Origin: Exiguobacterium sp. FSL W8-0210
GTDB taxonomy: Bacteria > Bacillota > Bacilli > Exiguobacteriales > Exiguobacteriaceae
Length of the DNA stretch: 64,000 nucleotides
Direction of reading: 5' to 3'
NCBI RefSeq assembly: GCF_038006045.1
Contig: NZ_JBBOUK010000001.1
Span: 537,001 to 601,000 of the forward strand
Part shown: positions 15,456-46,789 of the stretch, piece by piece
Numbering within the stretch: position 1 is the stretch's first letter
How the letters are laid out: every line of letters begins with the position of its first letter
The notes under the pieces: generated by a model
Told to the model about the DNA's origin: nothing
Database searches by the model: none
The model's input: only the letters and a program-made list of their open reading frames with translations
Program-made: the position numbers and the translations under genes

Positions 15456-15494
15456 AATACATGTCCTAGCAAGTACATAACGTACTGCAAACAT

Positions 15495-15567
15495 GATTCT
15501 GTAGCTCAGCTGGGAGAGCGCTACCTTGACAGGGTAGAGGTCGCTGGTTCGAGCCCAGTCAGAATCA
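15495..15567 (+). tRNA. tRNA-Val (anticodon GAC)
   Basis: A 73-nt cloverleaf. The acceptor stem is GATTCTG/CAGAATC, the D arm GCTC/GAGC, the anticodon stem CTACC/GGTAG with loop TTGACAG (anticodon GAC), and the T arm GCTGG/CCAGT with TTCGAGC. The discriminator is A and CCA is not encoded. It is identical to the copy at 25989-26061. Confidence 0.97.
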
Positions 15568-15572
15568 TACCG

Positions 15573-25960: not shown

Positions 25961-25988
25961 AAAAACATACCCAGTAACAACACAGCAT

Positions 25989-26061
25989 GATTCTGTAGCT
26001 CAGCTGGGAGAGCGCTACCTTGACAGGGTAGAGGTCGCTGGTTCGAGCCCAGTCAGAATCA
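25989..26061 (+). tRNA. tRNA-Val (anticodon GAC), second copy
   Basis: Identical over all 73 nt to the copy at 15495-15567, with the same CAT before and TACCGAAA after it. It is oriented the same way, about 10.5 kb downstream, and an IS30-type element begins about 50 bases after it. Confidence 0.97.
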
Positions 26062-26066
26062 TACCG

Positions 26067-26110: not shown

Positions 26111-27153
26111 TTGTAATATTAAGTGCAACACCTAGCTGAAAACACAAAAAAAACCCATAACGACCTCGTGTAGAATAGAGTTACCACACCAAATTCAACG
26201 GAGGATTCGTTATGAGCTATGTTCATCTTACCACATCAGAAAGAGTCAAAATAGAAACTTATCTAGAGCTTGGATTTTCAATGCGAAAGATCGCTCAGCA
26301 TCTCGGACGACAGCCGTCCACGATTTCACGTGAGCTCAAACGGAATCCTTCCTACAATGCGATCAACGCCGGACTGCGTTATGAGATGCAAAAAAAGAAT
26401 TGTGGAGCACGCACGCTGTTCAGCACTTCGCTTGGCTCATGTATCCTTTCGAAACTGCGAGAGACATGGTCTCCCGAACAGATCGCCGGACGGCTCTTTC
26501 ACGAACAGGGACCATCGTACAGTACAATCTATCGATGGATATATAAAGGATTCATCAAGAGCGATTTAGGCGTTTTACGACAAAAAGGAAAGCGCCAAAA
26601 GCCACGTGAGACAAGAGGTCGCTTCAACATCGGGCTTCCGATCAGTAAACGTCCGTCGGACGTCCGGGGTCGAGAAACGTTCGGGCATTGGGAGTTGGAT
26701 ACTGTCGTATCAGGACGAGGGCAGACAAAGGCGTGTGTTGCGACATTCATCGAACGTAAAAGTCGGTTCTATATCGTACTACCGATGGTCGACCGTTCTT
26801 CTCACTCGATGGAACATGCCATCCAAACACTTTACTCTTCTTTCCCATCGGGAACGTTTCAAACCATGACGACGGATCGCGGTAAGGAGTTCAGCTGTCA
26901 CGAACGGATACAGGACTCTCTTGGTATCCCAATGTACTTTGCGGATCCCTATTCTTCATGGCAACGTGGCAGCAATGAGAATGCAAATGGTCTTCTCCGT
27001 GAGTTCTTCCCAAAGGGAACCAACTTCGGAATGATCAACAAGACAGAATTAGATTACGCACTTTCTAGAATCAACAATCGACCAAGGAAGTGTTTGGATT
27101 GGAAAACTGCATACGAGGTCTTTTCCGAAGAAGTGTTGCGCTTAATTTGACAA
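26111..27153 (+). mobile_element. IS30-family insertion sequence
   Basis: The left end TTGTAATATTAAG (26111-26123) and the right end (complement reads TTGTCAAATTAAG, to 27153) match at 11 of 13 bases. The match continues inward as ATTAAGTGCAACAC versus ATTAAGCGCAACAC. The element is about 1.04 kb and holds one intact transposase gene. No clear target duplication is visible (flanks GAA and ACC). It lies between the tRNA-Val terminator and the terminator of the PTS gene. Confidence 0.85.
26212..27150 (+). CDS. IS30 family transposase
   Basis: A 312-residue DDE transposase. The N-terminal helix-turn-helix (MRKIAQHLGRQPSTISREL) is typical of IS30. The catalytic triad appears as HWELDTVVSG (D), TTDRGKEF (D) and NENANGLLREFFPKGT (E), so it looks intact. 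The start has CGGAGGA 7 bases upstream. The stop codon lies inside the right inverted repeat. Confidence 0.95.
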   Translation: MSYVHLTTSERVKIETYLELGFSMRKIAQHLGRQPSTISRELKRNPSYNAINAGLRYEMQKKNCGARTLFSTSLGSCILSKLRETWSPEQIAGRLFHEQGPSYSTIYRWIYKGFIKSDLGVLRQKGKRQKPRETRGRFNIGLPISKRPSDVRGRETFGHWELDTVVSGRGQTKACVATFIERKSRFYIVLPMVDRSSHSMEHAIQTLYSSFPSGTFQTMTTDRGKEFSCHERIQDSLGIPMYFADPYSSWQRGSNENANGLLREFFPKGTNFGMINKTELDYALSRINNRPRKCLDWKTAYEVFSEEVLRLI

Positions 27154-27217: not shown

Positions 27218-28240
27218 TTATTGAATTTCGAGGTGAAGATCGCCACGCTTCGTCCACCCTGCGACGGTCGTCAATCGATAGAAGACGAGCGTCAAGACGC
27301 CAGGTAGAACGACACCAGTCAAGAAGAAGACGAGGAACGCCTGAGGACCTTGGTTGACGAAAATATTGAGTGGGGCAATCATCGAATTTAATCCAAGTCC
27401 TGCGAGTTCGTACGGTACTTTCAAAGAGAGAAGAAGCGTCGCGACAGGAGCTGAAATCATCGCTGCGAGAAACGGTGCAACGACAAGACGTGGATTTTTA
27501 ACGATGTTCGGGAATTGTACTTTAGGTGTTACAAAGAATGAAGCAATCAAACCACCTGGATCCGTCTGACGGTATGCCATCAACGTGAAGCCGACGAATT
27601 GAGCGGAACAGCCAATCAGTGCAGCGGCACTTGCTACAGGATCAAGTTGCAAAGCGATAGCGAGTGCAGCGGACGAAGCAGGAGACATCAATAAGACACT
27701 AAAGATGAGTGCAATGACAAGAGAAGTTGCGATTGGAGATGATTCAACGGATGCTGTGATCATGGCACTGAATTTTGTAAGGAGTGGTGTCGTGACGGCA
27801 GCAGCACCGATTCCAGTCACGCCGCCAGCAAGGACAGCGCTCATCGGGATGACCATCATGTCAAATTTCGTTTTTCCAGTCATGCGTTTTCCGACGTATA
27901 CAGCGACGGCAGCTGCGAGTAACGCACTGATCGGCTGACCGGGTACAAGAACGAGTCCAGAAGCAGTTGATTGAAGAGCGGCACCACCGATCGTTGCTGC
28001 GATCATCGCGCTGAACAGGACAAGTGTGTTTCCTCCGAGCTGAAAGGCAATACCGGCACCAAGTGCAGGGGCGAGTAGTACTTTTGCGACACCACCAATC
28101 GTCAGTAGCATTTGGATATGTAGAAGATTTCCGAGCGTCTCAATCAGGAGTCCGACACCAAGTGTTACAAGAACGGCATTTGCCATTCCAGCTGATACTT
28201 TTACCATTCGATCCATCGCATATTCTTTCAACGTTGTCAT
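27218..28240 (-). CDS. PTS sugar transporter subunit IIC (EIIC_2 family)
   Basis: A 340-residue membrane protein with about ten hydrophobic segments, of the PTS_EIIC_2 family. The family is annotated as PTS transporters, but it lacks linked EIIA/EIIB domains and its substrate is not established. Ala/Gly-rich helices and the NPRLVVAPFLAA segment are visible. The ATG follows GAGAGGATG. It stands alone on the minus strand behind a leader of about 240 nt that ends in an intrinsic terminator, so expression is probably controlled by an RNA element. Confidence 0.82.
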   Translation of the reverse strand: MTTLKEYAMDRMVKVSAGMANAVLVTLGVGLLIETLGNLLHIQMLLTIGGVAKVLLAPALGAGIAFQLGGNTLVLFSAMIAATIGGAALQSTASGLVLVPGQPISALLAAAVAVYVGKRMTGKTKFDMMVIPMSAVLAGGVTGIGAAAVTTPLLTKFSAMITASVESSPIATSLVIALIFSVLLMSPASSAALAIALQLDPVASAAALIGCSAQFVGFTLMAYRQTDPGGLIASFFVTPKVQFPNIVKNPRLVVAPFLAAMISAPVATLLLSLKVPYELAGLGLNSMIAPLNIFVNQGPQAFLVFFLTGVVLPGVLTLVFYRLTTVAGWTKRGDLHLEIQ

Positions 28241-28270
28241 CCTCTCTATCTATCTCTATTTTTTGCCATG

Positions 28271-28299
28271 AAAAAAGCCTATCCGTTTTTGGGATAGGC
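28271..28299 (-). terminator. Attenuator-type terminator before the PTS IIC_2 gene
   Basis: On the minus strand GCCTATCC (28299-28292) pairs with GGATAGGC (28284-28277) and six T follow. It lies about 30 bases before the PTS start codon and after a structured leader, so it should control read-through into that gene. Its 5' arm shares GCCT with a competing stem at 28296-28302. Confidence 0.75.
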
Positions 28300-28500
28300 G
28301 CCACTCATTCTGTGCGGGCGCCTCATTCGATGCATCGAAAGAAGGGCCCAAAAATCATTTCCGTTTCATCATCGGAAAAGTTTTCAGTCCCTCATGCATA
28401 GAATAATCAGTCGGCCGGCTTGGTTAAATGGCTGTTGCGTCGGAATCATTCGATCGTGCCCCTCTCTGTGAATTTTTCTAAGCCTAACACGCTCTTGATT
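28277..28500 (-). ncRNA. Structured leader, candidate riboswitch or attenuator
   Basis: About 220 nt with no supported gene upstream of PTS IIC_2. Visible pairings on the minus strand are GGCTT/AAGCC, a long stem with ATGCAT on both sides (about 28399 and 28335) enclosing TTTCCG/CGGAAA, and AGGCGCC (28323-28317) with GGCGCCT (28302-28296). The last pairing overlaps and would exclude the terminator at 28271-28299. I could not match it to a known riboswitch. Short similarities to S-box (GAGGGACTG) and to c-di-GMP-I (ACGCAA..GCC) do not extend. Confidence 0.5.
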
Positions 28501-28599
28501 TATAATCAATATTTTCTGACAATTTATTTTTCCTGAAATCTGACAGGAATTCACGGTATCACCGGGAAATCCTAATGTACCAACAATGGAGGCGTTTAC

Positions 28600-29334
28600 A
28601 TGAAAGTGATGCTTTTTACAGATATTCATGGCAATGCATCAGCATTACGTGCAGTATTGTCCTATCTTGATCAACAACCAGATATCGATGCCGTCTATTG
28701 TCTCGGTGATCTTGTCGGCATTGGACCAGAGCATAATGAAGTCATTGATCTATTGAAGCAACGTCCTGATATTCAAACGATTTCTGGGAATCATGATGAA
28801 TGTGTCCTTGCTTTAATTCATGGGGAGACCTATCCCGATAGTTACCGCCATGCGAAAGAGCACCATCAATGGATTGCGGATACGTTGACGCAAGAAAATC
28901 AAAAGTATTTGGAACGTTTACCGCGTGTCTTAAATATCATGCATCAGGAACAAACGATGCACCTGACGCACTATGCTTATGCCGATAAGACGAAGAAGAT
29001 TGGTGAAGAGCCGTTAAAGCAAGCGGTGGATGGAACGAAAGAAAACTTATCCGTCCTGTTTGCTGGAAGTGAGGCGCGGATCATTGGTTTCGGTCACCAT
29101 CATCCAGCGCAACAAGTCGAGACAGGACAAACACTCTTTATTAATCCAGGTGCACTTGGATGTCAGGAGACAGCCATCGCCCCAGTAGCAATCATTGATT
29201 GGGAGAAGGATCAAGTCCGTTCAGAAATCCTGAAGCTTTCATATGATGATCGACCATTTTTAGACGTCCTCAATACGACGGAGATGCCGGAACGTGAGTT
29301 GATGCGCCGTCTCTTCTTCGGTAGTAGGACATGA
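28600..29334 (+). CDS. Metallophosphoesterase family protein
   Basis: A 244-residue calcineurin-like phosphoesterase. All metal-binding motifs are visible: DIHGN, GDLVGIG, GNHDE and GFGHHHP, with INPGALG near the end, as in YfcE/ApaH-like single-domain enzymes. The substrate is unknown. The start follows GGAGG by 8 bases. It is divergent from the PTS IIC_2 gene. The 3' end meets a hairpin that serves the next, convergent gene. Confidence 0.87.
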   Translation: MKVMLFTDIHGNASALRAVLSYLDQQPDIDAVYCLGDLVGIGPEHNEVIDLLKQRPDIQTISGNHDECVLALIHGETYPDSYRHAKEHHQWIADTLTQENQKYLERLPRVLNIMHQEQTMHLTHYAYADKTKKIGEEPLKQAVDGTKENLSVLFAGSEARIIGFGHHHPAQQVETGQTLFINPGALGCQETAIAPVAIIDWEKDQVRSEILKLSYDDRPFLDVLNTTEMPERELMRRLFFGSRT

Positions 29335-30494: not shown

Positions 30495-30812
30495 ATGGGC
30501 AAAAACGTATATTCAAGTGAAGTGAAATGGGCAGTAGTCAAAGATAAGCTGAGTGGTAAGTTAACGACGAGAGAAATCATGGAGAAGTACGGAATCAAAA
30601 ATGAATCTCAAATCAAAACATGGATGAGATGGTATCGCTCTAACGAACATTATCGATTTGATCAGCCAATCGGTAAACAATATACCTATGGACATGGTCC
30701 AGATTCTGCGAGTGAGGATGACAAGAGAGAACGACAAATGTCACATCTGAAGATGGAAAATGAAATCTTAAAAAAGTACATGGAAATCGAAAGAGAGTTG
30801 AGAAAGAAGTAG
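30495..30812 (+). CDS. IS3-type transposase OrfA
   Basis: A 105-residue DNA-binding protein with an N-terminal helix-turn-helix (TTREIMEKYGIKNESQIKTW) and a C-terminal leucine-zipper-like tail (HLKMENEILKKYMEIERELRKK). The heptamer A-AAA-AAG at 30770-30776 is in the right phase for -1 slippage into orfB. The start has CGGAGG upstream. Confidence 0.92.
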   Translation: MGKNVYSSEVKWAVVKDKLSGKLTTREIMEKYGIKNESQIKTWMRWYRSNEHYRFDQPIGKQYTYGHGPDSASEDDKRERQMSHLKMENEILKKYMEIERELRKK

Positions 30813-31657
30813 TCTTAAAAATTGTAGAGTTTCTTCGGAGAAAGTATACAATCACCGCCATTCTTAGCGCTTTGAATGTACCAAGAGCAAGCTATTACCG
30901 TTGGATTAAGGAATCTGTGAAAGCACCTTCGGTGCTCGAAAAAACCGTCATTGAACTAAGTAAACAGACGAAGTATCGGAATGGACATCGAAAAATAAAG
31001 GCATTATTACAGCAAATCTATCAGTTAAAAGCCAATCGGAATACCGTACAGAAAATCATGCAAAAACACCATCTCCAATGTCGGATCAAGCCGAAGCGAA
31101 GATGGAAGTCTCAAGGTGAGCGCATCATAACGGTACCGGATCTCATCAAGCGCGATTTCACAGCAAGTAAACCGAATCAAAAGTGGGTGACGGATATCAC
31201 CTATATCCAATACGGCAGCACGACGAAATATCTTTCCACCATCATGGATCTTTTTAATAACGAAATCGTCGCATACAAGTTATACGAGCATCAACAAACG
31301 TCTCTTGTGATTGATACGTTGAAGATAGCGCTTGAGAATCGAAACTATCCCGAAGGGGTCATCCTTCATTCGGACCAAGGAAGTGTCTATACGTCATACG
31401 CCTTTCAAGAATTCGTTAAAAGGAATCACCTAACAAGCAGCATGTCTCGTAGAGGAAACTGTTGGGACAACGCAGTTATCGAATCGTTCCACTCTAATTT
31501 AAAGTCCGAGGAATTCCAGTACGTCAAATTTAATTCACTAAGAGACCATGAGGTCTCTGAACGCGTTACTAATTACTTAAATTACTATAACGAAGAACGA
31601 ATCCAAGAAAAATTAGGCTACCTGACACCGAAAAAATACGGTGTACAGGCAGCCTAA
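30773..31657 (+). CDS. IS3-type transposase OrfB (made by -1 frameshift from orfA)
   Basis: The catalytic DDE domain. The frame is open from the slippery site at 30770-30776 and continues without a stop to 31657; an internal TTG at 30872 is the first possible independent start but has no ribosome binding site. Motifs are TDITYI (D), LHSDQGSVY (D) and NAVIESFHSNLKSE (E), so the enzyme appears intact. Translation as an OrfAB fusion is expected for this family. Confidence 0.9.
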   Translation, partial: KVHGNRKRVEKEVVLKIVEFLRRKYTITAILSALNVPRASYYRWIKESVKAPSVLEKTVIELSKQTKYRNGHRKIKALLQQIYQLKANRNTVQKIMQKHHLQCRIKPKRRWKSQGERIITVPDLIKRDFTASKPNQKWVTDITYIQYGSTTKYLSTIMDLFNNEIVAYKLYEHQQTSLVIDTLKIALENRNYPEGVILHSDQGSVYTSYAFQEFVKRNHLTSSMSRRGNCWDNAVIESFHSNLKSEEFQYVKFNSLRDHEVSERVTNYLNYYNEERIQEKLGYLTPKKYGVQAA

Positions 31658-46617: not shown

Positions 46618-46653
46618 CTCTATGCTACAGTTAAGGCGAAACGAATACTTGAG

Positions 46654-46747
46654 CAACTAGGGGAGCTGGAGGAATCCGGCTGAGAGGAAAACCAATCTGT
46701 TTTCGACCCTATTACCTGAACTGGATAATACCAGCGTAGGAAAGTTG
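46654..46747 (+). promoter_or_regulatory. TPP (thiamine) riboswitch
   Basis: The THI-box core is complete: CTAGGGGAGC, then GGCTGAGAGG, ACCCTATTACCTGAA, CTGGATAATACCAGCG and TAGGAAAG. P1 is CAACT/AGTTG. It is followed by a terminator at 46790 and then thiD, so thiamine pyrophosphate should cause premature termination. Confidence 0.96.
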
Positions 46748-46789
46748 AGCCGAACGGATACCGGAATGCGTGTATAACGCTTTCGTATA

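Follow-up and report, generated by a model that had tools for sequence, protein, structure and literature searches.

A probable CodY-repressed, ribosome-mediated transcription attenuator precedes a PTS_EIIC_2 gene in Exiguobacterium

The window, a 64,000-nucleotide stretch of the genome of Exiguobacterium sp. FSL W8-0210, carries on its minus strand a gene for a stand-alone EIIC-fold membrane protein, PTS_EIIC_2 (positions 27218 to 28240). The original prediction of a PTS IIC_2 gene agrees with the match of the encoded protein to PF13303 (E 3.4e-88), and no other domain, such as an EIIA or EIIB phosphotransfer domain, was found in the protein. Translation probably starts at TTG 28231 rather than at ATG 28240, because the sole Shine-Dalgarno (SD)-like sequence, GAGAGG, abuts ATG 28240 and relatives keep GTG or TTG at the later position. 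Upstream of the gene, on the same strand, an intrinsic terminator (GCCTATCC-(7 nt)-GGATAGGC-T6) occupies 28271 to 28299, exactly as predicted; it is conserved with compensatory changes and is the sole terminator-like site within 28200 to 28700 (0.4 expected in shuffles). The predicted alternative pairing of AGGCGCC (28323-28317) with GGCGCCT (28302-28296) was likewise found in its place; this antiterminator (28296 to 28323, minus strand) overlaps the 5' arm of the terminator and covaries. Two further minus-strand hairpins lie upstream. Hairpin P1 (28343 to 28392; 5' arm AGGGACTGAAAA, 28392-28381; 3' arm TTTTTGGGCCCT, 28354-28343) is supported by covariation. Hairpin P2 (28316 to 28349), an anti-antiterminator in which GGGCCCTT (28349-28342) pairs with GAGG-C-GCCC (28324-28316), is supported by RNAalifold and covariation and is mutually exclusive with both P1 and the antiterminator. 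A long stem bounded by two copies of ATGCAT, also proposed originally, was not upheld: the 5' copy lies within leader codons and is lost in most relatives, and the 3' copy makes up the loop of another hairpin. The whole leader folds only slightly more stably than shuffles (z of -1.74), and with so mild a score it is conservation and covariation, rather than energy, that support the leader.

The leader had been described as carrying no supported gene, but it contains a conserved open reading frame (ORF) of 21 codons, MIPTQQPFNQAGRLIILCMRD*, at 28384 to 28449 on the minus strand (ATG 28449, TGA 28384), with an SD sequence, GAGAGGGG, at 28459 to 28466 (minus strand), 9 nt 5' of the ATG. Putative control codons CTG ATT ATT CTA (Leu Ile Ile Leu) span 28399 to 28410 (minus strand) and begin 20 nt 5' of the P1 arm, and the 5' arm of P1 holds the last leader codons and the stop. 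The functional unit reaches past the region originally delimited (28241-28500) to include a promoter and a CodY-like box at 28524-28481. The proposed promoter (28481 to 28509, minus strand), read from the sequence and conserved in nearly all leaders, comprises a -35 TTGATT (28509-28504), a 17-nt spacer, and an extended -10 TGTTAGGCT (28489-28481); a consensus promoter scan did not report it. Adjoining the -35 is the candidate CodY box, AATTGTCAGAAAATA (28510 to 28524, minus strand), which agrees with AATTTTCWGAAAATT at 13 of 15 positions. The consensus of the CodY box and the role of CodY are well established; CodY is a repressor that acts with branched-chain amino acids and GTP. Two CodY-like boxes were found in the window versus 0.7 expected by chance, and a single box by itself is near chance; the position of the box and the block that contains it are strictly conserved.

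Next, conservation of the leader within Exiguobacteriaceae was examined. A DNA search found it in 31 of 61 genomes, and covariance model R1 matched 34 of 37 Exiguobacteriaceae genomes and none of 24 others. Every one of the 30 distinct leaders 5' of the PTS gene in the Exiguobacteriaceae alignment has an ATG ORF with an SD sequence and a Leu/Ile run 20 to 23 nt 5' of the first stem; an ORF with an SD sequence and a Leu/Ile run occurs at the same place in three Exiguobacteriaceae brnQ leaders. In the 30 PTS leaders the run and the end of the peptide read (R/Q)LIIL..RD*, LLIIL..RD*, or LLIII..RD*, and the N-termini differ in sequence and by whole codons, giving peptides of 17 to 21 codons. The block TTNTCAGAAAATATTGATTATT barely varies across 30 leaders from two genera, in contrast to its diverging flanks, and the promoter pattern (TTGATT, 17 nt, extended -10 TGTTA(GG/CT)CT) recurs in nearly all leaders. 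Three Exiguobacteriaceae genomes (G023, G030, and G031) lack the leader, and G023 seems also to lack the orthologous PTS gene. A third R1 match in G015 (E 0.009) falls inside a coding region and was rejected as spurious.

The alternative folds were assessed by comparison. RNAalifold returned the OFF fold (GGGCCCTT with GAGGcGCCC, plus the terminator) unprompted from the Exiguobacterium alignment. In the wide set of 25 leaders aligned for covariation, the ON fold (P1 plus antiterminator) had 92.3% of cells paired and a covariation score of 0.190 (at most 0.088 in slid controls), and the OFF fold (P2 plus terminator) had 89.7% of cells paired and a score of 0.296 (at most 0.118 in slid controls); since the fold was derived partly from the same sequences, the paired percentages are biased toward it, and the double changes are less so. 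The number of pairs with double changes was not above shuffles (162/500 and 102/500), but the number of cells carrying double changes was, as was the covariation score (0/500 each). Column 91 covaries with two alternative partners, pairing with column 52 when P2 forms and with column 110 when the antiterminator does. In P2 the changes were A-U/G-C at 52:91, U-A/C-G at 50:93, and G-C/A-U at 51:92; in the antiterminator they were U-A/C-G at 91:110, and the brnQ copy has U-A at 90:111. The apical stem of P1 differs in sequence between lineages. The check put forward with the original prediction, conservation and covariation of the leader, supports its alternative folds: the leader is kept in relatives and both folds covary.

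To model the nascent transcript, RNA was folded up to the 5' arm of the terminator. With the P1 arm free, the probability of the antiterminator was 0.90 to 1.00 in 13 of 13 leaders; with the P1 arm masked, it dropped in all 13, to 0.00 to 0.05 in six, to 0.28 to 0.59 in six (0.47 in the window), and to 0.91 in L019. At full length, equilibrium favors the terminator in most leaders (probability of the antiterminator of 0.06 in the stalled state of the window), and the ON state consequently needs kinetic trapping, which is a general need of attenuators.

From this comparison of sequences (a conserved leader ORF with Leu/Ile codons, a conserved distance from codons to stem, two conserved exclusive folds, and a terminator), the element is very likely a ribosome-mediated transcription attenuator, probably repressed by CodY, whose signal is the supply of charged tRNA-Ile and tRNA-Leu. 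With plentiful Ile and Leu, the ribosome would get to the stop codon and cover the 5' arm of P1; GGGCCCTT would then pair with GAGGcGCCC (P2), AGGCGCC would be hidden, and the terminator would form (OFF). With scarce Ile and Leu, the ribosome would stall at CTG ATT ATT CTA, P1 would form and take up GGGCCCT, and AGGCGCC would pair with GGCGCCT, so that the 5' arm of the terminator would be occupied and PTS_EIIC_2 transcribed (ON). In rich medium, the promoter would probably be blocked by CodY. From the combined scheme of attenuator and CodY, the PTS gene would be induced, along with brnQ, under branched-chain amino acid starvation. The regulating codons lie in a leader ORF whose translation is putative, and the exclusive folds are attested by covariation; that a stalled ribosome frees the deciding arm and a terminating one masks it is seen computationally, from spacing and masked folding, and weakly in L019. 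The earlier expectation that identifying the signal would shed light on the gene held, with the predicted signal being branched-chain amino acid starvation and not a sugar or nucleotide.

The element was not confined to Exiguobacteriaceae. It was found 5' of orthologous PTS_EIIC_2 genes in Sporolactobacillus, Oceanobacillus, Bacillus, Heyndrickxia, Weizmannia, and Terrilactibacillus. One scan of genome contigs gave 57 orthologous PTS loci outside Exiguobacterium, and 24 of these had an ORF with a run of Ile, Leu, or Val (ILV) codons and an SD sequence within 400 nt, versus 23 of 213 upstream regions taken as controls and 3.5 of 57 after shuffling (Fisher p of 3e-7, without correction for relatedness). 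Covariance model R2, built from PTS and brnQ leaders only, placed the element directly 5' of the gene in 24 of the 57 loci, nine of them outside its training set; the 24 R2-positive and the 24 ILV ORF-positive loci are partly different sets. No other same-strand R2 match was found below E 0.6 in 0.4 Mb. By R2, the element is absent from the other 33 orthologs, which indicates that control of the PTS gene varies. In nearly all leaders the ILV run begins 20 to 26 nt before the P1 arm, irrespective of the frame of the stop codon, whose position ranges from -7 to +12. In two Convivina loci (L201 and L202), an Ile/Val-rich leader, MKTISTSQLNQIIVISQIVIII*, lies ∼253 nt 5' of the PTS gene and has no R2 match; it may belong to another attenuator, one acting on a more distant PTS homolog.

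The ends of these peptides bear on whether the nascent peptide itself could arrest the ribosome in response to a drug or metabolite, in place of starvation at Leu/Ile codons. The well-conserved end of the Exiguobacterium peptide, (R/L)LII(L/I)xxRD*, would suit such an arrest, but the P1 arm AGGGACTGA accounts for its RD*. Beyond Exiguobacteriaceae, the ends differ: ...GLIRIILRLRT* in Sporolactobacillus, ...SSIIIIINLLC* and ...NNNILIINLIS* in Oceanobacillus, ...ADIILIINT* in Bacillus, ...DILLIILLC* in Heyndrickxia, and MNLIQIIEVNYLGIINDRSII* for the whole Terrilactibacillus peptide. What is kept is the richness in Ile and Leu and the spacing. Peptide arrest is therefore judged highly improbable, and stalling by starvation is retained as the sensing step.

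The element also precedes other genes. In the genome of the window, a diverged second copy (G000:C1:2074199-2074334), encoding the peptide MTHATLIQERLIVIKSRD* and with a CodY-like box of its own, lies immediately 5' of brnQ, whose product matched PF05525 at 437.6 bits and TIGR00796 (livcs) above its cut-off. Closer brnQ copies were found, and read over their full length, in two relatives (L031 and L032), and the diverged copy was found in further relatives. Over 398 Bacilli genomes, R2 also matched the ilvD leader of three Staphylococcus-like genomes (34 to 37 bits), the genus being inferred from gene content and the published leader; in one of the three the leader peptide is MTQFNTQPHTVIHNLIILLYSQGLEL*. 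The genome of the window has two BrnQ genes, and a PF00920 search found no IlvD in it, while the same search was positive in 14 of 14 control genomes. The organism is probably unable to synthesize branched-chain amino acids through the standard pathway.

These genes also weigh on the original reading of the leader as riboswitch-like. That reading stands insofar as the alternative stems and the terminator are real, conserved, and covarying, and the call of no known class was sound: an Rfam search to E 10 gave only chance snoRNA and DicF matches far below gathering. An undescribed class of metabolite-binding riboswitch would fit these facts. The sensor, however, is very probably the ribosome on a Leu/Ile-rich peptide. 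The region 5' of the terminator is mostly ORF, with an N-terminus free in sequence and length (17 to 21 codons); conservation is concentrated in the two folds and the Leu/Ile codons; the hairpin within P1 varies freely in sequence, as an aptamer would not; and the other genes under the same element (brnQ and ilvD) are branched-chain amino acid genes. A new riboswitch class thus retains a very small likelihood, only slightly above that given to peptide arrest, and the ribosome-mediated attenuator remains the preferred reading.

Comparable leaders are known. The ilvD (ilv-leu) attenuator of Staphylococcus aureus combines CodY control with a 26-codon Ile/Leu-rich leader peptide and a terminator (PMC5794164). 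The Exiguobacterium leader is alike in its Ile/Leu-rich peptide, its terminator, and its probable CodY control, and the Staphylococcus-like ilvD leaders matched by R2 correspond to this published leucine-rich attenuator; the S. aureus leader differs in that it controls biosynthesis and not a PTS_EIIC_2 gene. The antiterminator described for S. aureus involves the poly-U tail as pairing partner (PMC5794164), and that of Exiguobacterium takes the 5' arm of the terminator. Listeria Rli60 was tested by mutation and likewise joins CodY, a 13-codon leader peptide, and a terminator/antiterminator (PMC5864092), a combination that the element described here probably shares. The Rfam model of rli60 (RF02414) matched two Staphylococcus-like ilvD leaders (110 and 93 bits; gathering score of 60). 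It had no match in the leader of the window (E up to 10), in the rest of its genome, or in the PTS leaders of other Exiguobacterium, Oceanobacillus, Sporolactobacillus, and Bacillus. In its mode of action the element resembles rli60, to which it is probably related, but by RF02414 it is not a member. In Corynebacterium, the ilvB leader is described (PMC10272879, PMC11857589) as an ORF with alternative hairpins controlling branched-chain amino acid genes; this likeness is by description, and the phylum and the gene differ.

T-boxes (RF00230) also sense tRNA charging, and one precedes the orthologous gene in Virgibacillus; in the Exiguobacterium leader, by contrast, sensing would go through translation. 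A T-box in the leader of the window was considered and rejected, as there was no RF00230 match and no specifier loop or UGGNACC motif. The genome holds 21 T-box copies, and none was seen adjoining ilvE, brnQ, ilvD, or ilvB. A literature search for attenuation in Exiguobacterium found none. The regulator is a textbook one in kind; what is new is this member and the gene under its control. The element is conserved in several Bacilli genera and missing from Rfam, and T-boxes are the more familiar solution in this group.

For this orphan transporter family, the leader is the first regulatory hint at a physiological role to come out of the analysis; a literature search found no paper for COG3641 or PTS_EIIC_2. 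An AlphaFold2 model of the PTS protein (pLDDT of 76.7) has the EIIC fold expected of the PTS glucose superfamily. Its best solved matches were bcMalT (Z 18.8, rmsd 3.6, 313 residues aligned) and glucose IIC (Z 18.4), and no solved structure was matched by sequence. The GITE motif, which marks sugar-binding glucose-type IIC proteins, is not in the protein. In Virgibacillus sp. MSJ-26 (L192, 4091-5176), a T-box, PTS_EIIC_2, and ilvE lie in a row. The T-box, at 61 bits, fell short of its gathering score (93), and ilvE, ∼77 nt after the PTS gene, scored 420.8 bits against TIGR01123 (cut-off of 250). A CUC (Leu) specifier fits the fold of this T-box with one base from codon to helix, while the model alignment reads UUC. 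Apart from Virgibacillus, no ilvE, brnQ, or ilvD was found within 3 kb of PTS orthologs, and this T-box was the only one 5' of a PTS gene among 40 orthologous loci searched with Rfam and 57 scanned for motifs. A Clostridium T-box 1.8 kb upstream was rejected, since it belongs to an aspartate--tRNA(Asn) ligase gene.

Predicted co-regulation with brnQ, the missing ilvD, and the Virgibacillus ilvE linkage suggest a branched-chain amino acid role, and the PTS_EIIC_2 gene probably serves branched-chain amino acid supply. If the protein indeed takes up branched-chain amino acids, a fold known from sugar transport, EIIC, would have been turned to amino acids. The attenuator could also operate as described while PTS_EIIC_2 moves some other compound useful in starvation, or acts as an exporter or sensor. 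The EIIC fold, with bcMalT and glucose IIC as its best solved matches, speaks for this alternative, and regulation does not define a substrate; the co-regulation with brnQ, the operon-like order with ilvE in Virgibacillus, and the lack of a GITE motif speak against it. We give this alternative somewhat less than an even chance. The genome encodes two more PTS_EIIC_2 paralogs (G000:C1:856922-857896 and 2301616-2302569), neither with an R2 match. In other Exiguobacteriaceae genomes, three PF13303 matches at another locus (L107, L112, and L116) have CodY-like boxes agreeing at 13 of 15 positions.

Elsewhere in the window, a TPP riboswitch lies at 46649 to 46759 (plus strand; 70.4 bits). Two tRNA-Val(GAC) genes with equal scores lie ∼10.5 kb apart on the plus strand (15494 to 15568 and 25988 to 26062), the second near an IS30-like transposase ORF (26212 to 27150) that adjoins the PTS gene; the pair is possibly a duplication or an island boundary. 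An IS3-type transposase pair, two ORFs recognized by eye, occupies 30495 to 31657 (plus strand).
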